From IMG/VR virus record IMGVR_UViG_3300028800_000331, positions 1 to 22,100 of that record: a stretch of DNA of 22,100 nt. One strand, given 5' to 3'. The stretch comes from a virus. The position numbers and the translations under genes were made by a program. Position 1 is the first letter of the stretch. Each line of letters opens with the position of its first letter. Positions 3-21,343 of the stretch are shown piece by piece. The notes under the pieces are model-generated. The model made no database searches. It was not told the DNA's origin and was given only the letters and a program-made list of their open reading frames with translations.

Positions 3-1658
3 ATGGTCGACCACAGCGACAAGCAGGGCGATTCGTTCGATTGGGGCAAGCTCAAGGCCGAGTGGAAGAACGACTGTTGGGTCGTCAAGATGGGCGAGCT
101 TTGGTCGCGCGGCAGCGGCCGCCCCTCGGAGGGCAGCAAGGCCGCTGCCGATGGTTCGCCGGGTGCGCCTGAGATCGTCAATATCGGCAAGGCTGGCGAC
201 TACGGCACGCATGAGGAAGCCGGCTACGCCGATCCCGGGTACCAGGCGGACCAGAAAGCGCGGCTGCCTTTGAAGAAAGGTGGCGTCCTGTGGGCTCACC
301 GCGTCCGCGGCGCTTGGACGTACTTCACCAAGAATGTCAGCAACTACCCGCCGGACAAGGCGCCTCTCGTCGAGAAGGCAATCGTCGATGCGTGGCGCAC
401 GGTTTTCATGGACAACGGCCCGCCTTCCGCCAAGGCAATCACCACCAATGAGGACAAGCAAATGAAACATGCCGCCTTGCAGGCCCTCGGCAAGGCCGAC
501 GCAACCGGGGGCCTCTTGAAGGGGCTGTACTCCGCTTGCTCGGCGATCTCGCTGTTGGGCCAGTTGAAGTACCTGCAGGAAGACCTCGCACGCGAAGCCG
601 CGGTCGAGGGCGATAATTCGCCGATGCCGGGCCGCTTCCGATCGTTGCTGGAGATGATGGCGGGGCTCGTACAGGCTGTCCTCGAAGAGGAAGTCGAGGA
701 GATGTTGAACAATACCGACGCCGTCGATATGAACGGCGGCATGATCATGTATGCCGCGCAGCCCCTCGGGCTGGCCAAGACGCGCGTCGGACGCAAGGCA
801 TTCGCCGAGGTCTTGACCAAGGCCATTGGCGATAAGACCGGCTCGCCTAAGTTCGAGGCGATGTCCGCTTTGGCCGAAGCGATCGGCAAGGGCGAGGTGG
901 CCCAGACCCAGTCGTGGGGCGAAATGGCCGGCTCGCTGTCGACCGCGCCGAACAATGCGTGGTCCGAGAACAGCCATCCGCAACTGACGAACGATGTCTG
1001 GGGCGCGCATGGCGAGCATGCGCAGAAGGTCCACGACATCGCAGTCAGCAAGGGCGCCAAGTGCGACACCACTCATAAGGCGGCCGAGGCCGCCGCAAGC
1101 GGAAAGGATACCCCTGACGTGACGAAGACAGCACCCGATATGGTGGCGCTGGCCGCCAAGTTCGACGAAATCTTCGACTCCGAGAAGCACCGGAGCATGG
1201 GCGATCTCGCGAAGGCTCTGGACGTCAGCGAGGATGTGGCGCGCGATCTCGTGGTCGGTGCGCTCGCCAAGGCGAAGAAGGATAAGGATAAGGCCAAGAA
1301 CGACCGCAAGAACCCGGATGACGGCAATGACAGCGAGGACGATGCCGACGGCGACGAGGCCAAGAAAGCTCGTGAGTCGCTGGACCGTCTCGGGCTTGGC
1401 CCGTTCGTCGACGCCCTGATCGATGTCAGCAAGGGACAGGCTGTCTTGCACGAGAAGATCGACAACATCGTGGCGGGCGCCAACGGCCGTCGCAATCCCG
1501 CCGGCAAGGGTCACTCGGGCGTGGCCACTGTCGTCGAGAAGTCCGAGGATGGCATCGGCCTTGGCGCCAAGACGGCCACCATCGATCCCAAGGACCCGAC
1601 TTATGCCGGCAGCGTGCTCAAGGGCTTGCTGGCAAATCCGCGGGTCGTTTCCCGGTAA
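3..1658 (+). CDS. Capsid-assembly (scaffold-position) protein with DUF6582-like motif, possibly 5' partial
   Basis: This 551-residue hydrophilic protein lies directly upstream of the major capsid gene, where siphoviruses usually keep the scaffold or protease-scaffold gene. Residues about 74-137 (YADPGYQAD, then RGAWTYF, then NVSNYPPDK) resemble the DUF6582-type segment of many phage head proteins, in which YADPGYQ.DGKKRYP is followed by a helix reading RAAWSYI. Residues about 150-400 look mostly helical. Residues about 400-460 are very rich in Lys, Asp and Glu, as in scaffold or delta domains. No Ser-His protease motif is recognisable. The first ATG is at base 3 and the frame is open to the window edge, so the true start may lie upstream and an N-terminal protease domain could be missing. 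A scaffold role is inferred from position and composition. Confidence is high that the gene is real and moderate for the role. Confidence 0.7.
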   Translation: MVDHSDKQGDSFDWGKLKAEWKNDCWVVKMGELWSRGSGRPSEGSKAAADGSPGAPEIVNIGKAGDYGTHEEAGYADPGYQADQKARLPLKKGGVLWAHRVRGAWTYFTKNVSNYPPDKAPLVEKAIVDAWRTVFMDNGPPSAKAITTNEDKQMKHAALQALGKADATGGLLKGLYSACSAISLLGQLKYLQEDLAREAAVEGDNSPMPGRFRSLLEMMAGLVQAVLEEEVEEMLNNTDAVDMNGGMIMYAAQPLGLAKTRVGRKAFAEVLTKAIGDKTGSPKFEAMSALAEAIGKGEVAQTQSWGEMAGSLSTAPNNAWSENSHPQLTNDVWGAHGEHAQKVHDIAVSKGAKCDTTHKAAEAAASGKDTPDVTKTAPDMVALAAKFDEIFDSEKHRSMGDLAKALDVSEDVARDLVVGALAKAKKDKDKAKNDRKNPDDGNDSEDDADGDEAKKARESLDRLGLGPFVDALIDVSKGQAVLHEKIDNIVAGANGRRNPAGKGHSGVATVVEKSEDGIGLGAKTATIDPKDPTYAGSVLKGLLANPRVVSR

Positions 1659-12993: not shown

Positions 12994-15900
12994 ATGGGCT
13001 TTCTGCTAGGCGGCCTTACGGCCTCGAAGCCTCAGGCTAAGACCAAGCCCGCCTACACAGGGCTCCAGACGCAGACCTCATCCTATGGTGGGGTTGTGGT
13101 GCTGGTGTTCGGGGCGACGCGGGTCGCGCCGAATATCATTTGGTATGGCGACTTCCTCGCCATCCCGCACACCACCAAAACGAAATCCGGCGGCAAGGGC
13201 GGCGGGTCCGCCAACACGGCTACTACGACTTACACTTATCAGACCGCCGTCGCTCTCGGCTTGTGCCAAGGCATATGCACCAAGATCGGCACGGTGTGGA
13301 AAGCCAAGGCGCAGACTACGTTGGCGGCTGAGGGGTTCACATTCTTCAACGGCGCCTATGGGCAAGCCGCTTGGAGCTATCTTGTTACCAATCATCCGAC
13401 GCAAGCTATCCGCTATTCCGGCACGTGCTACATCGCGGCTGACGCCCTCGATCTGGCGGACTCGGCTGATCTGCCGAACTACACCTTTGAGATATTCGGC
13501 CTTGCGCAGAACGGCATTTCCAGCGGGCCGGATGCGCTGCCACGCGACATCGTCACATTGTTGACGACAAACGCTTATTGGGGCGCTGGCCTGCCTTCGG
13601 CCTTGCTCGATGCTTCCATGACCCAGTTTAATAACTGGTGCAAAGCGACGGGCATGGTAATGTCGCCGGCCTATTCCGAGGCGAAGCCGTGCGCCGAGCA
13701 TATTCAAGATATCCTTACATTGACTTCAAGCGCTTGGGTTTGGTATGGCGGCATCTACACCATCATCCCCTATGCCGAAGTCGCGGTCTCGGGAAACGGT
13801 ACGACATTCACGCCGGCGCTGACCCCTGAATACGATTTGACCGATGACGATTTCTTGACCGATCCGGGCAACGATCCGATCAAGTTGAAGCGCAAGCGCC
13901 CTTCGGATGCCTACAATTCGGTCAAGCTGGAATATCTGCTCCGGTCGAACCAATACAACTCAGAGGTGGTCGAAACCAAGAACCAGGCGGCGATCGATCA
14001 ATATGGCTTGCGGCCGATGTCGACGACGCAGGCGCACCAATTCTGCCTTACGCAAGCGGCGCTGCAGTCGGCGCACTATATGCTGCTGCGCGAGAGCTAT
14101 CTTAATACTTACGAGTTCAGTGTTGGGTGGAAGTTCATTCTTCTCGACCCCATGGATATCATCACGATTACTGACACCAAAATGGGCATCATTCGGCAGC
14201 CCGTCCGCATCCTTGAGATTACCGAGGATGATCAAGGGCGCCTTGCCATGGTTGTCGAGGAATTGCTGACCAACCAGGCGACGGGCGCCGTCTTCGCAGA
14301 GCCGCAGGGCACACGCTATTCGGTCGACTACAATGTTGCGCCGGGGCCGATCAATATCCCGATCATGTTCGAGCCGCCGCTGGCCTTGCTCAGCACAGGC
14401 GTACAGCTGGAAATCTGGTGCGGCGTCAGCGGCGTCAATCCCAACACGTGGGGCGGCTGCAATGTCTGGGTGTCGTACGATGGCGACACCTATCAGGAAA
14501 TCCAGGACCGGGTTGTCGGCTCCAGCAATATGGGCGTGACGACTGCTACGCTGGCGTCCTTTACGAGAGCGGCAGTGGGTAATACTTTGGACACCATTCA
14601 CACCCTGGCTGTCGATGTAACTAAGGGCAATGGCACGCTTCTTTCGGGCACGGCGCAGGATGCGCAGAACCTTGCGACGCTGTGCTATGTCGGCGGCGAA
14701 TTGATCGCCTACCAGACGGCAACGCTGACCGGCTCGCACAAGTACAATCTGACTTACCTCATTCGAGGCGCTTATTCGTCGACCATCGCCAGCCATGCCG
14801 CCGGCACGAACTTCATGCGGCTGGACCAAAGCATCATCCGCGTACCGGTCAACACCGAGAATATCGGCCGACAAATCTATCTGAAATTCCAGGGCTTCAA
14901 TATCTACGGCGGTGCGATCGAGGATCTGGCCGATGTGCCGGCCTACACCTATACGCCTACGGGCGCGGCGTTGGCCTCGGCCTTGGCGAACCCTACGAAT
15001 GTCACTACAGCCTTCGTCGCGAACATCCTGCAGATTACGTGGGACCCGATCGTCGATCTCCGATCGCCGATTGACTATGAAGTCCGCAAGGGCGCTACCT
15101 TTGCGAATTCTCAGGTCCTCGGGCGAACAGACTCGACGCATGGCTTCCCGGCGCACGGCGATGGGACCTACTGGATTTCCGCGCACTATCGCGCGCCCAC
15201 GGGCCTCGACATCTATTCGTTCAATCCGCCGAGCATCGATATTGTCGGCGCTGACATTACGCAGAACATCATCGCCTCATGGGATGAGGGCGCTACAGGG
15301 TGGTCCGGCACGCTTACCAGCATGGTCAAGGATGGGCTTACTATCGAGCTTCAAGGCGCGGGCGATCTCTTGTCGTCTTCGGATTGGTTGGCCGAGACTG
15401 ATCTGCTTTTCGGCGGCGTAGTATCAAGCGGGTATTACGAGGCGCCGGCAGGCCATATCATTACGCTGGCTGCGGTGAACACCTGTCCGATCCTCATGGC
15501 TTGGGAAGTCTTCGGCGTATCGCTGTCCTCGGACTTCCTCGACATCGCCGACTTCCTTGGCAATCCTGATTTCCTCGGGGCGCAATTCAATGCTGAAGTA
15601 TCCGTACAGCCTCAGGTCTCTTTGAGCCAGGATGGTGTGACGTACGCCGCCTGGATCAATTGGAACCCCGGCAGCTATACGTTCCTTACAGTCAAGGCTC
15701 GGATATTGGTCAGCACATTGAACCCGGCGGTGAATGCTATCGTTGGCAGCTGGCAATGGGGCGTCGATGTGCCGGACCTGATTCAAAGCGCGTTCGGTGT
15801 GCCCATCCTCGCCGCGGGCTCGACGATCACGTTCCCTAAGAAGTACAATCTGGCTACGCCGGCAGTGTCTGTAACTATTCTCGATCGACAGACCGGCGAC

Positions 15901-16053
15901 GTAGATGTGCTGACCGAAGCCAACATCAACGCTTCAGGCTTTACATTCCAGGTGCTGAACGGCGGCGTAGGCGTAGCTCGGCACATCAATTGGATCTCAC
16001 GCGGGTTCAGTGTTGCTTTTGCATTGCTGTCTGTGCTATCTATGTGGGCATGA
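12994..16053 (+). CDS. Large tail-tip / host-specificity protein (GTA gp15- or gpJ-like)
   Basis: This 1019-residue protein forms the tail tip and probably contacts the host. The N-terminal third (SYGGVVVLVFGATRVAPNI, about 30-48) opens like gpJ-type tip proteins. Residues about 278-430 (DDDFLTDPGNDPIKLKRKRP, then NSVKLEY) match the 'putative phage tail protein' hub domain. LIRGAYSSTIASHAAGTNFM (about 588-608) is a conserved family block. About 663-745 resembles a fibronectin type III domain. Residues about 932-1007 (PAVSVTILDRQTGD, then GFTFQVLNGG and HINWISRGF) look like the usual C-terminal end. The last 14 residues after SRGF are unlike the family and probably came with the downstream insertion. 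GAGGA lies 13 bases upstream of the start. Confidence 0.85.
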   Translation: MGFLLGGLTASKPQAKTKPAYTGLQTQTSSYGGVVVLVFGATRVAPNIIWYGDFLAIPHTTKTKSGGKGGGSANTATTTYTYQTAVALGLCQGICTKIGTVWKAKAQTTLAAEGFTFFNGAYGQAAWSYLVTNHPTQAIRYSGTCYIAADALDLADSADLPNYTFEIFGLAQNGISSGPDALPRDIVTLLTTNAYWGAGLPSALLDASMTQFNNWCKATGMVMSPAYSEAKPCAEHIQDILTLTSSAWVWYGGIYTIIPYAEVAVSGNGTTFTPALTPEYDLTDDDFLTDPGNDPIKLKRKRPSDAYNSVKLEYLLRSNQYNSEVVETKNQAAIDQYGLRPMSTTQAHQFCLTQAALQSAHYMLLRESYLNTYEFSVGWKFILLDPMDIITITDTKMGIIRQPVRILEITEDDQGRLAMVVEELLTNQATGAVFAEPQGTRYSVDYNVAPGPINIPIMFEPPLALLSTGVQLEIWCGVSGVNPNTWGGCNVWVSYDGDTYQEIQDRVVGSSNMGVTTATLASFTRAAVGNTLDTIHTLAVDVTKGNGTLLSGTAQDAQNLATLCYVGGELIAYQTATLTGSHKYNLTYLIRGAYSSTIASHAAGTNFMRLDQSIIRVPVNTENIGRQIYLKFQGFNIYGGAIEDLADVPAYTYTPTGAALASALANPTNVTTAFVANILQITWDPIVDLRSPIDYEVRKGATFANSQVLGRTDSTHGFPAHGDGTYWISAHYRAPTGLDIYSFNPPSIDIVGADITQNIIASWDEGATGWSGTLTSMVKDGLTIELQGAGDLLSSSDWLAETDLLFGGVVSSGYYEAPAGHIITLAAVNTCPILMAWEVFGVSLSSDFLDIADFLGNPDFLGAQFNAEVSVQPQVSLSQDGVTYAAWINWNPGSYTFLTVKARILVSTLNPAVNAIVGSWQWGVDVPDLIQSAFGVPILAAGSTITFPKKYNLATPAVSVTILDRQTGDVDVLTEANINASGFTFQVLNGGVGVARHINWISRGFSVAFALLSVLSMWA

Positions 16054-16697
16054 CAAGCGGCATCTATAAAGTAACAAATGCGGCCAATGGCAAGTACTAT
16101 ATTGGGTCTTCAAGTGACATAGAAGCTCGGTGGGAAGACCACTTGTTTCACCTGCGACGCGGTACGCATACAAACCCCCACCTACAAGATGATTGGCGGC
16201 GCTTGGGTGGCGCTTCGTTTTTCTTATCGGTTGTTCGTATAGTGCGAAAAGACAAAGCTGCGCTAATCAAGGCGGAGCTTCGTGCTCTGTCCCAACTGTA
16301 CCCGTTCGATCCTGATGTGGTCTACAACATTAAGCTTATATCGGGCAGTAGTCTTGGATCGAAACGAACACTTGCCCAGCGAGCAGCGATGTCCCTTGCG
16401 GCGCAGCCACAAGCTGAACGGCAGCGAGGTATGTCGTTCGGTAAGAAATGGCGGCCAGGGGAAATGTCTAAGGAGCATCGTGCCAAGATTGGCAGGGCAA
16501 GCCGCCGGCGTTGGGCTGACCATAACTATCGAGAAGAGGTTTCAGCTAGAATATCAGCCGGCCTTAAAGGCCACCAAGTCTCTAATGAGACGCGGGCGAA
16601 AATGGCAGCAGCCAAACGAGGTCGAAAGTTGTCAGACGATACTCGTGCCAAAATGCGAGAAGCCCAACGACAGCGCCGAGCGCGTGAAGGCTGGTGA
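16050..16697 (+). CDS. Free-standing GIY-YIG homing endonuclease
   Basis: This 215-residue protein is a DNA endonuclease of the Seg/Mob type that spreads itself by cutting alleles lacking it. GIY (4-6) and YIG (17-19) are followed by Arg27 and His31, Glu76 and Asn93, the expected catalytic set. The basic C-terminal half has three NUMOD3-like DNA-binding repeats, at about 139-153 (MSKEHRAKIGRASRR), 178-191 (SNETRAKMAAAKRG) and 195-209 (SDDTRAKMREAQRQR). I chose ATG 16050, which overlaps the tail-tip stop (ATGA), because the motif starts at residue 4. An ATG at 15990 would add 20 residues read from tail-tip sequence. The DNA is visibly more AT-rich than its neighbours, a sign of transfer. No intron is seen. 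Confidence 0.88.
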   Translation: MTSGIYKVTNAANGKYYIGSSSDIEARWEDHLFHLRRGTHTNPHLQDDWRRLGGASFFLSVVRIVRKDKAALIKAELRALSQLYPFDPDVVYNIKLISGSSLGSKRTLAQRAAMSLAAQPQAERQRGMSFGKKWRPGEMSKEHRAKIGRASRRRWADHNYREEVSARISAGLKGHQVSNETRAKMAAAKRGRKLSDDTRAKMREAQRQRRAREGW

Positions 16698-16740: not shown

Positions 16741-17619
16741 ATGACCGAAGCGCTGATTTCACCAATCGCTGTAACGCCTGTTCGCGAAGGCGTTCTCGCC
16801 TACTTACGAACTGATGTCTATGTCGGGCGCTGCCTGGAGCTTTACGGCGAGCACTCGCCCGGCGAAGTTCGTCTTTTTCACGCATTGCTGAACAAAGGCG
16901 ACGCGGTGGTTGAGGCCGGCGCCCATGTGGGCGATCATACCTTGGCTCTGGCCAAGATCGTCGGCTCCGAAGGAAAGGTCGTCGCGTTCGAGCCTCAAGA
17001 GGCTCTTGCGGGCCTGCTGCTGACAAACCTCGCTATCAACAACGTCAGCGGGTGGACTTATGTAGCGCCCATCGCCCTTGGCGATGAAGCGGCCAAGGAT
17101 GATGTCTTCTGCCCCGATACCAATTACCTCGCGCCGGGCAATTTCGGCGGCATCAGCCTCAACGCCGTCAAGCACGGCAAGATCGTCACGCTCCAGTCTT
17201 TGGATAGCTTCGAACTCCCAAAGCTGGATTTTCTCAAGATCGATGTCGAGGGTATGGAGCTTGCCTTGCTCCGAGGCGCGGTCAACACCATTGGCATGCA
17301 CCGCCCGGTAATCTATGCCGAGAATGACCGGCCCGAGAAGTCGGCCGACCTCATTCGCTGGCTCATGGAAGCCGACTATCGGCTGTGGTGGCATTTGCCG
17401 CGGATGATCGATCGCGACAACTACAAGGGCAAGGCCTCGATCATCTACCCGAACATGGTCTCGATCAACATGCTAGCGTTGCCGTCGAAATTCCATCTGT
17501 CCTACTTCGATATCGAAGAACGTGATGGCAATCGGATGTGGCCAGTGGCCCAGATCGACGATCGGCCCGATGCAGAATACGACCGACGCCTAAAAACAGG
17601 AGTGATCAAGGATGCGTAA
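16741..17619 (+). CDS. FkbM-family SAM-dependent methyltransferase
   Basis: This 292-residue protein has a class I methyltransferase core. Motif I is VVEAGAHVGDHTLALAKIVG (about 56-75), the acidic end of strand 2 is VVAFEP (80-85), and LDFLKIDVEGMELALLRGA (about 162-180) is the FkbM signature. FkbM relatives mostly O-methylate sugars or small molecules. The substrate here is unknown: host surface glycan, virion glycan or something else. The open frame extends upstream to 16282, but that part only shadows the endonuclease gene. ATG 16741 has AAGGAAAC at a good distance. Codon use returns to the GC-rich style of the phage. Its stop overlaps the fibre start by eight bases, so it is probably co-expressed with the fibres. 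Confidence 0.85.
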   Translation: MTEALISPIAVTPVREGVLAYLRTDVYVGRCLELYGEHSPGEVRLFHALLNKGDAVVEAGAHVGDHTLALAKIVGSEGKVVAFEPQEALAGLLLTNLAINNVSGWTYVAPIALGDEAAKDDVFCPDTNYLAPGNFGGISLNAVKHGKIVTLQSLDSFELPKLDFLKIDVEGMELALLRGAVNTIGMHRPVIYAENDRPEKSADLIRWLMEADYRLWWHLPRMIDRDNYKGKASIIYPNMVSINMLALPSKFHLSYFDIEERDGNRMWPVAQIDDRPDAEYDRRLKTGVIKDA

Positions 17620-18775
17620 CATGATCAAGCACAGCATGTCGTGGGCGGCGGCGGCGCTGTGTATGCTGTCCGCCCTCTACGTCGGAATGCACCAGCCGAC
17701 CACCATGTCGGCGCCCGCCTCGCAGAACGCTACCGCGCTGCCGACCAGTAGTACCTATTCCGGTCTCCAGGCGGCAATCATCATCAACGGCGCGCTCGAT
17801 ACGTTGCTGTCGCAATCCTCGGGCGCCTCAGCACCGCCCACGCCTACCACATGGCAGACGTGGGCCGATACGACCAACAACCTGCTCAAGATCTGGAACG
17901 GCTCGGCTTGGCTGACGATGGGCAGCTTTGCCAGCAACCAGTGGGTAGGCTTTACCGGCGGAGTCAAGGACTCGGCGCCGACTACGACCGGGTCGGCGAA
18001 CGCCTATGTCCTCACCTATTCGCCGGCAACCACGGCCTACGTCTCGGGCATCGCCTATACCTGGACGGCCAGCTTCAGCAATACCGGCGCGGCTACCATC
18101 AACATCGATGGGCATGGCGCCGTCGCCATTACCAAGCGCGGGACAAGCGCTGTCGCTAATGGCGATATTCTTACCGGGCAGGTGGTGTCGTGCGTCTATG
18201 ACGGCACGGAATGCCAGATGTCCTCGCCGACAGCGGCGGTGGGCTTTACCGGCCCCGGCTCATCGACCGACAATTCGCTGGTGCTCTGGAATGGTACGAG
18301 CGGCAGTGCGGTTAAGGATGGGCCAGCCCTTGGCTCTTCTGGGCAGGTGATGACCAGCAATGGCGGTAGCTCCGCGCCATCGTTTCAGAACCTGCCGGCG
18401 ACGATCTCGGCCGCGACGCAGGCGCAGCAGGAAGCGGCAACGGCGACTACTGTCTATGACTCACCGGGCCGGCAGCAATTCCATCCCTCGGCGGCGAAGG
18501 CGTGGGCTTATGTCAATTCCGCGGGCACGATCGTCACCAGCTACAATACAAGCGGCAGCACGCATCCCGGCACAGGGCAATACACTGTGTCGTGGAACAC
18601 TGACTTTTCATCGGCCAATTACGCATGTGCCGCGATGATGACGGGTATCGCCACGAATGGCACAGTCAGCATCGCGAGCCAAGCGGCTGGCTCGGTGACG
18701 GTTAATGTCCGTTCGGGAAGCTCGCCGAGCCAATCAGATACCGCTTTTGAAATCATTTGCTTCGGCGACCAGTAG
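17612..18775 (+). CDS. Tail fibre-like protein with signal-peptide-like N-terminus
   Basis: This 387-residue protein has a fibre-type body. About 113-205 (GFTGGVKDSAPTTTGSANAY, then ATINIDGHGAVAI) is a repeat module common in phage fibres. The C-terminal region from about 290 (HPSAAKAWAYVNSAGTIVTS, then GTGQYTVSWNTDFSSANYAC, ending FEIICFGDQ) is a widespread fibre-tip domain. The N-terminus is odd: after a Lys/Arg segment comes the hydrophobic stretch SWAAAALCMLSALYVGM (about 10-26), like a signal peptide or membrane anchor. AGGAG nine bases before ATG 17612 supports this start, and no later ATG (17636, 17663, 17687, 17705) has a comparable site. It is probably a receptor-binding fibre, but may be exported or membrane-attached instead. 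Confidence 0.72.
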   Translation: MRNMIKHSMSWAAAALCMLSALYVGMHQPTTMSAPASQNATALPTSSTYSGLQAAIIINGALDTLLSQSSGASAPPTPTTWQTWADTTNNLLKIWNGSAWLTMGSFASNQWVGFTGGVKDSAPTTTGSANAYVLTYSPATTAYVSGIAYTWTASFSNTGAATINIDGHGAVAITKRGTSAVANGDILTGQVVSCVYDGTECQMSSPTAAVGFTGPGSSTDNSLVLWNGTSGSAVKDGPALGSSGQVMTSNGGSSAPSFQNLPATISAATQAQQEAATATTVYDSPGRQQFHPSAAKAWAYVNSAGTIVTSYNTSGSTHPGTGQYTVSWNTDFSSANYACAAMMTGIATNGTVSIASQAAGSVTVNVRSGSSPSQSDTAFEIICFGDQ

Positions 18776-18784
18776 GAGTCACCA

Positions 18785-19876
18785 ATGCCCACTTATGCTG
18801 ACCTTCCTACGACACCGCCGCTTCCGGGGCTGGCTGGCGTCGGCGATATGAACAACAACTTTAACGCCCTTATCGCCGCCCTGTATCCATCGTCGTTGAC
18901 CATCAACGACGACTTCTCGGTCTGGCAGAACAGCCAAGCGTTGGGCTCGACGGCGGTCGCCGATGATATCTATACCAGCTGCGACGGCTTCTATGTGCTA
19001 ACGCAGACCGCCAGCGTCAACGTTAGCCAGCTTACGTTTCCCGAGAATGGCTACCCCTTCGCCTTGCGGGTAACGCAGAACCAGGCTTCCGCCCAACGCT
19101 TCGGCTTGGCGCAGATTATCGAAGCGGCGGACTCGCAACGCTACCGCGGCGGTAATATCGCCGGCCAAGCCCGCATCCGCTGTTCATCCTCGCAGGCGAT
19201 CCGCTATGCCCTATGCGAGTGGGTCGGCACGGCCGATGCGGTGACCAGCGACATCGTCGCCTCATGGACCAGCGGCACCTATACGCCGGGCAACTTCTTT
19301 CTCGCGTCCAACCTGAATGTGCTGGTGGTGGGTGCTGTTACGCCGACAGCCAATGTGTGGACCGATCTGGCCGCCGTCACCGCGGCTTGCGGCAATTCGG
19401 CGAACAACTTGATCCTGTTTGTATGGACAGAAGGAACCGCCGCGCAAAACGTCACTCTCGACTTCAACAGGTTCCTCATACAGCCCGGCGCCTCGATCTT
19501 CAAGCCGGCGCGGCTGCCCTATGCTGTCAATCTGGAGCGGTGCCAACGGTTCCTTCCGGTGTTCGACGCAGCCCTTGGGGCTAGCTCGCCGGTAGGAGCG
19601 GGGTTTCTGGTTAGCGGCACCACGGCTCGAATTACCTACAGGTACCCGAAACGCACACTCAAGGCGCCGACTGGTGTTACCGTACTGAACGCCGCCAATT
19701 TCGTCGTCGAGAATTTGGCGACCAGCACCGCTGCATCGGGGGTCGGGCTTGTCAGCGCCGGCACCGATGCTTGTGAGTTTAACTTTACTGTAACCGGCTT
19801 GACCGCCGGGCAGGGGATTGTTGGTCGAGCCGGCAATGTTAATTGTCTGTTCCTGCTAACTGGTAGCCAGCTGTAA
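18785..19876 (+). CDS. Second tail fibre / carbohydrate-binding tail protein
   Basis: This 363-residue protein starts with a short segment (PTYADLPTTPPLPGLAGVGD, MNNNFNALIAAL) typical of fibre N-termini. Residues about 38-260 (LTINDDFSVWQNSQALGS, then SCDGFYV, then the strand LDFNRFLIQPG) follow the jelly-roll pattern of phage tail proteins reading N-x-D-F-x-x-W/Q-x...DRW. The C-terminal 100 residues are beta-rich, without charged clusters. This looks like a glycan-binding adhesin. AGGAG lies before the start, nine bases after the previous fibre's stop. Its composition and position support a role in host attachment, but the ligand cannot be read from the sequence. Confidence 0.72.
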   Translation: MPTYADLPTTPPLPGLAGVGDMNNNFNALIAALYPSSLTINDDFSVWQNSQALGSTAVADDIYTSCDGFYVLTQTASVNVSQLTFPENGYPFALRVTQNQASAQRFGLAQIIEAADSQRYRGGNIAGQARIRCSSSQAIRYALCEWVGTADAVTSDIVASWTSGTYTPGNFFLASNLNVLVVGAVTPTANVWTDLAAVTAACGNSANNLILFVWTEGTAAQNVTLDFNRFLIQPGASIFKPARLPYAVNLERCQRFLPVFDAALGASSPVGAGFLVSGTTARITYRYPKRTLKAPTGVTVLNAANFVVENLATSTAASGVGLVSAGTDACEFNFTVTGLTAGQGIVGRAGNVNCLFLLTGSQL

Positions 19877-20671: not shown

Positions 20672-21343
20672 ATGCGCTACATCAACCAGTTGGCGGCTGT
20701 CGCGGTCCTCGCGCTGTCGCTGATGGGGTGCGCCAACAGCGGCGTTACCACTACTTCATCCCAGACTTCCACCCAGCAACTCTACCAATCCTTCGTGGCA
20801 ACGCCGGTGGCGGCTTCGATCTTGGCGCAGACCGGCGCTTCGCTCGAAACCGCATGCGTGATCAAGCCGAGCAGCCAGCTTCGAACCGACGTCAATACGG
20901 CGCTGCTCTCGATCTCGGCGGCGCTCACCGCCGGCAACAAGGTGATTCAGGATGCCGCCGCCGCGTCGCCGCCTGCCGATCCATCCGCGGCATCGGTTGG
21001 CCTCAATTCCGCCGAAGCGGTTCTTTCGACGCTGCAATCGCAGCTGGCGGTCCTCAAGGTATCCCCAGCGGCCGCGTCCCGAGCCTTGGCGGCAACGCAC
21101 AGCAAGGGCGCGTCCATCGCTACGCTGGCGCCGGTCATCATCAACTTGGTGATCCAGAACCTGCCGCTGATCATCAGCAGCGTCAGTTCGTTGGCGCCCA
21201 TCGTCGAGGGGTGGATCGATTCCCTGAGAGGCGGTACGGCGACGACGGCGCCTCTGACAGCGGCCGATGTACAGCACGCCATCGATTCCTTGAACGGCAG
21301 CCTCGCCTCTTGGCAGAATGCCGGCTCGACGGTGTGCCAATGA
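20672..21343 (+). CDS. Phage-encoded lipoprotein (unknown function)
   Basis: This 223-residue protein begins with a lipoprotein signal peptide (RYINQLAAVAVLALSLMGC), with Cys20 as the likely lipidated residue. Ser22 and Asn23 zones follow without an Asp at +2, so outer-membrane sorting is plausible. The mature part is Ala/Ser-rich and helical (DVNTALLSISAALTAGNKV, then SAEAVLSTLQSQLAVLKV). Residues about 150-178 (IATLAPVIINLVIQNLPLII) are strongly hydrophobic. AAGGAAAC provides the ribosome binding site. The stop overlaps the holin-like gene start (ATGA). No family was recognised. Position at the head of the lysis block suits a lysis accessory protein, and superinfection exclusion is another option. 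Both are inferences. Confidence 0.75.
   Translation: MRYINQLAAVAVLALSLMGCANSGVTTTSSQTSTQQLYQSFVATPVAASILAQTGASLETACVIKPSSQLRTDVNTALLSISAALTAGNKVIQDAAAASPPADPSAASVGLNSAEAVLSTLQSQLAVLKVSPAAASRALAATHSKGASIATLAPVIINLVIQNLPLIISSVSSLAPIVEGWIDSLRGGTATTAPLTAADVQHAIDSLNGSLASWQNAGSTVCQ

Follow-up and report, generated by a model that had tools for sequence, protein, structure and literature searches.

A FkbM-type methyltransferase gene with a predicted glycan substrate in a phage tail operon, between a homing endonuclease gene and the fibre genes

On the basis of its sequence and a structural model, the open reading frame at 16741-17619 of the window (the whole 22,100-nucleotide stretch of viral DNA analysed here, positions 1 to 22,100 of IMG/VR record IMGVR_UViG_3300028800_000331) is a genuine FkbM-type class I methyltransferase gene with predicted O-methylation activity. 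Its role is best explained, with a probability of roughly 45%, as that of a tail-operon accessory gene which would methylate a host-made surface or flagellar glycan and so alter the receptor. The annotated features of the tail-tip and fibre region are as follows.

12994..16053, + strand: tail-tip gene, J/TipJ-like, with Phage-tail_3 and Rcc01698_C domains (1019 amino acids; Pfam and PHROG)
16009..16053, + strand: 14-residue C-terminal extension of the tail-tip protein, SVAFALLSVLSMWA, plus stop (G+C 0.44; missing from six homologues)
16050..16697, + strand: free-standing homing endonuclease gene, GIY-YIG and NUMOD3 (Pfam, PHROG, TIGR01453)
16741..17619, + strand: FkbM-family SAM-dependent methyltransferase gene (292 amino acids; AAGGA ribosome-binding-like site upstream)
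17612..18775, + strand: first fibre gene (387 amino acids; PHROG and alignment to the fibres of relatives)
17612..17704, + strand: leader at residues 1-31 of the first fibre protein, hydrophobic and resembling a signal peptide
18785..19876, + strand: second fibre-like gene (363 amino acids; PHROG 4492 tail fiber, 1.3e-6)

The methyltransferase reading frame is intact, with an ATG start and no internal stops. Its protein, P0001, was found to exceed the curated cut-offs of both family models, Pfam Methyltransf_21 (PF05050; 70.8 bits, cut-off 22.7, E 2e-19) and NCBIfam fkbM_fam (TIGR01444; 71.6 bits, cut-off 37.7), and it also matches the PHROG 8156 methyltransferase (E 8.5e-23). NCBIfam matches to MnmM and isoaspartate methyltransferase were far under their own cut-offs. 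The SAM site and FkbM signature claimed in an earlier, sequence-only reading are both present: in an alignment of 52 sequences (P0001 and 51 viral or bacterial relatives) P0001 retains every invariant column, among them the SAM-motif residues G60 and G64 as well as E84 and KIDVEGME at 166-173, and the AlphaFold model shows a confident class I (Rossmann-like) methyltransferase fold (pLDDT 88.9, pTM 0.88). P0001 departs at three columns that are 90% conserved (N62H, V176L and N234I), with H62 also being found in the relatives L017 and L170. Loss of the SAM-binding residues in homologues, which would have spoken against the claim, was not observed, as these residues are kept among the aligned relatives. 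The top match to P0001 in a Foldseek search of the PDB was the solved FkbM protein 2py6 (E 8.9e-8), a match that is only moderate by query length (TM 0.46). COMT and tRNA methyltransferases were also among the structural matches, but they have only the general fold in common with P0001.

The fibre start ATG at 17612 falls within the methyltransferase gene, whose stop codon occupies 17617-17619, to give an overlap of 8 bases, and an AGGAG lies about 9 nt upstream of this ATG. The translational coupling to the first fibre gene that had been proposed thus agrees with the layout. Overlap-type coupling of the methyltransferase gene is to the fibre gene only, and a 43-base gap separates it from the endonuclease gene. 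The gene does sit within the block of tail-tip and fibre genes, as previously described, but it does not adjoin the tail tip, since the intervening endonuclease gene at 16050-16697 had been overlooked. No promoter-like site was found for the methyltransferase gene in a sigma-70-type scan, and terminator-like sites occur at about chance level; within the reach of a scan that sees sigma-70-type promoters only, the gene does not have the promoter and terminator of its own that define a classical phage moron. The tight packing, the overlap with the fibre gene and the lack of such a promoter-like site suggest that it would be read through together with the tail genes. Expression alongside the virion genes fits this layout, from which we infer late expression.

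The tail-tip gene appears to have been altered at its end by the arrival of its neighbour. Homology of the tail-tip protein, as judged from the blastp and tblastn ends of homologues, stops at residue 1005 (base 16008), and six homologues (those of L084, L185, L189 and L194, a Herbaspirillum protein and a Pusillimonas protein) end at the matching residue. The segment 16009..16053 is likely to be the left edge of the endonuclease insertion, and the tail-tip protein is probably 14 residues longer than these six homologues because the endonuclease gene arrived there. The start of this gene overlaps the tail-tip stop (ATGA). Its product is intact and carries both a GIY-YIG domain (1.2e-8) and a NUMOD3 DNA-binding motif (8.2e-6), with further matches to a PHROG homing endonuclease (2.5e-22) and to TIGR01453 (1e-21), and cleavage is a predicted activity only. 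A group I intron around the gene was ruled out, as none was found in a permissive Rfam search and the homology of the tail tip is also complete upstream of the endonuclease. The only other viral match to this protein is partial and 26% identical. The endonuclease gene is a mobile element and stands outside the function of the methyltransferase.

Synonymous codon usage separates the two genes. The methyltransferase gene scores 0.249 bits per codon, within the range of the other genes of the phage (0.08-0.55), whereas the endonuclease gene is an outlier at -0.292 bits per codon, with a GC3 of 0.49 vs 0.70. As the former lies within the phage range and the latter far outside it, the methyltransferase gene is suggested to be the older resident, settled in the phage, and the endonuclease gene apparently the newer one.

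Both genes are extras at this junction, because in related tails the next gene directly adjoins the tail tip. The next tail- or fibre-like gene lies within about 55 bases of the tail tip in L084, L086, L092, L093, L094, L185, L189, L194, L195 and L196. From residue 37 on, the first fibre protein aligns with the fibres of L194 (z 21.6), L195 and L196, starting at their residue 2; in these relatives the fibre directly adjoins the tail tip. A recent stray insertion of the methyltransferase gene from a bacterium is disfavoured, given its phage-like codon usage and its many viral relatives, yet the gene is missing at the junction of the relatives. The 31-residue leader on the first fibre protein is missing from the fibres of L194, L195, L196 and L084; a signal-peptide-like leader is unexpected in a virion protein, and similar hydrophobic N-termini were observed in the Bradyrhizobium prophage L185 (7160-8608) and in the fibre-position protein of L092 (4151-7009). 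Among viral contigs, the fibres have only an identical copy as a relative, and 385 genomes from one class gave four matches to the tail tip (33-44% identical). The phage appears to be of siphophage type and to belong to Proteobacteria, the host being assigned from tail relatives only.

Two near-identical contigs lengthen the readable part of the phage, whose record is a fragment, to about 30 kb, adding a prohead protease domain upstream and lysis-type and other genes downstream. Among the 38 proteins of this part, neither a glycosyltransferase family nor an integrase family was found. The upstream extension (window 3-1658 with L188:4283-6934) completes an 884-residue protein whose N-terminal part is a prohead protease domain and whose long remaining part is uncharacterised. 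In the late block, 20672-21343 encodes a predicted small lipoprotein (LMGC lipobox) without a family match, which may act at the surface or in exclusion. The near-identical contig L083 stops about 70 bases short of the insertion edge; compared with window 14572-15936, seven of its nine differences fall within its last 1.4 kb, and this clustering may reflect a strain mixture at the site.

Relatives of P0001 are widespread. Pattern-based scans confirmed 299 stretches encoding relatives in viral contigs and at least 514 in bacterial genomes, so the concern that homologues might be confined to bacterial loci does not hold. Looking at phage homologues and their neighbours, as had been suggested, showed many in viral contigs, some of them near terminase and head genes or glycosyltransferases; neighbours include terminase, major head, portal, fibre gp80, Glyco_transf_9 and methyltransferase genes. 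In the tree, viral and bacterial sequences are clustered yet interleaved, with 16 changes by parsimony, at least three of which are forced by well-supported branches. Transfer of function to P0001 is weak because it sits on a long and poorly placed branch (1.53), in no supported group, with a highest identity of 43%. Its nearest viral relative in the tree, with weak support, is in L017, where a head-morphogenesis gene immediately precedes the FkbM gene and a Glyco_transf_9-like gene immediately follows it. A Glyco_transf_9-like gene also follows the relative in L005, and the relative in L010 lies beside a PHROG glycosyltransferase. L032 (5992-8046) and L035 (5992-8196) encode proteins in which FkbM, TPR and Glyco_transf_9-like parts are fused; these two come from large viral contigs of 511 kb and 343 kb. 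TPR proteins head the tally of neighbours of the bacterial relatives among the matches listed.

A glycan is the likeliest class of substrate, because relatives are joined to TPR proteins and glycosyltransferases and because flagellin glycosylation islands hold FkbM enzymes; the sugar substrate expected in the earlier reading is thus likely, given that some relatives are fused to glycosyltransferases or encoded next to them. The enzyme would use SAM to methylate a sugar hydroxyl, as its family and its glycosyltransferase-joined relatives suggest. Since the readable part of the phage holds no glycosyltransferase, the acceptor is most likely a host-made glycan, with a surface polysaccharide or a protein-linked flagellar glycan as candidates. 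Methylation would then change the receptor while progeny are being made and thus lessen re-adsorption and superinfection. The GIY-YIG homing endonuclease gene has settled between the tail-tip gene and that of the methyltransferase. Some considerations count against this explanation. FkbM itself methylates a ring hydroxyl of a polyketide, not a sugar, and the long branch of P0001 makes the transfer of function weak. A gene expressed late would also have little time to profit from excluding superinfecting phages if the phage is not temperate, and the readable 30 kb showed no integrase.

The main rival to a host glycan is a glycan of the virion itself, on a fibre, tail-tip or head protein, which would be built by the host or by unseen phage glycosyltransferases and whose methylation would affect receptor binding or stability. 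We regard this as doubtful, although it draws on the overlap with the fibre gene, the genes on either side of the L017 relative (head morphogenesis and Glyco_transf_9-like), and the links of relatives to TPR and glycosyltransferase-like proteins of the protein-modifying kind. In addition, the jumbo phage XacN1 has an annotated FkbM gene and glycoproteins detected by proteomics (PMC5852040). However, closeness within a packed operon is no proof of a virion substrate, and the phage glycosyltransferases that such a glycan might call for are missing from the readable 30 kb. A non-glycan acceptor, be it a host metabolite, a lipid, a protein side chain or nucleic acid, would accord with the work of FkbM itself in macrocyclic polyketide synthesis (PMC5537653) and with the COMT and tRNA methyltransferase folds, even if these agree in general fold only. 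We consider it unlikely, as the sequence family is specifically FkbM, the neighbours of relatives indicate sugars, and the MnmM and isoaspartate methyltransferase scores were too low.

It is also conceivable that the two genes form one mobile cassette, homing of which would transfer the methyltransferase gene to competitor phages along with the tail and fibre genes on either side. The endonuclease is intact, both genes jointly split the tail tip from a fibre that is its direct neighbour in relatives, and the phage RHph_X2_25 has an HNH endonuclease gene inside its tail/fibre block, between the counterparts of 16-3 p020 and p021. Against these stand the sharp difference in codon usage between the two genes, the finding of the pair at no other locus (with the distant, partial match as the sole viral relative of the endonuclease) and the fact that no close relative showed an empty site, L083 ending before the edge; such a cassette is improbable. 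More improbable still is a joint invasion module in which homing would co-convert the host-range genes while glycan methylation locks rivals out. Methylation of a host-made glycan remains the preferred reading. If the target is indeed such a glycan, a single enzyme would provide a simple receptor-changing step.

These observations add a well-defined example of a methyltransferase of the glycan type inside a phage tail operon, adjoining host-range genes, with a homing endonuclease settled at the same junction of tail tip and fibre. The wider viral FkbM family, including some fusions with TPR and glycosyltransferase-like parts, is little described in the literature searched. The gene had been called an uncommon cargo for a virion block; the place is still uncommon, but it has a precedent in a Sinorhizobium phage and there are relatives beside head and terminase genes. 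That precedent is gene p49 of phi3LM21, an alphaproteobacterial prophage, which is FkbM-like and directly follows the tail fibre gene (PMC5537653). Like the window gene it adjoins a fibre gene, but it lies after and not before it, is only distantly related to P0001 (23% identity over part) and has no homing endonuclease gene annotated alongside. ORF 21 of phage AP-16-3, which is flanked by the genes for a tail protein and fibre H and was named FkbM (PMC10460002), was rejected as the closest precedent: the AP-16-3 DNA over this stretch is 90% identical to that of 16-3, whose counterpart p021 (L187:13270-13680) is a DUF6950 protein and not FkbM, and the published name looks like a best-hit label.

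The free-standing GIY-YIG/NUMOD3 phage homing endonucleases of PHROG 314 and 7168 resemble that of the window in catalytic and DNA-binding domains and in their intergenic site, and comparison by sequence revealed no notable difference. Flagellin glycosylation islands combine FkbM methyltransferases with GT41 glycosyltransferases that carry methyltransferase domains (PMC4875605). They share with the window an FkbM-family enzyme in a sugar-modification setting, but they are bacterial chromosomal loci with GT41, whereas the window holds a lone enzyme of a phage tail operon with no glycosyltransferase found in about 30 kb. A putative surface-modifying acyltransferase gene lies beside the fibre gene of the Bradyrhizobium prophage ppBdUSDA122-1, which has a tail tip related to that of the window; this gene differs in specifying acyl rather than methyl transfer, in lying on the opposite strand and in following the fibre gene. 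Set beside these systems, the methyltransferase gene of the window would be a further instance of an established type of phage gene that modifies surfaces, its function being predicted.
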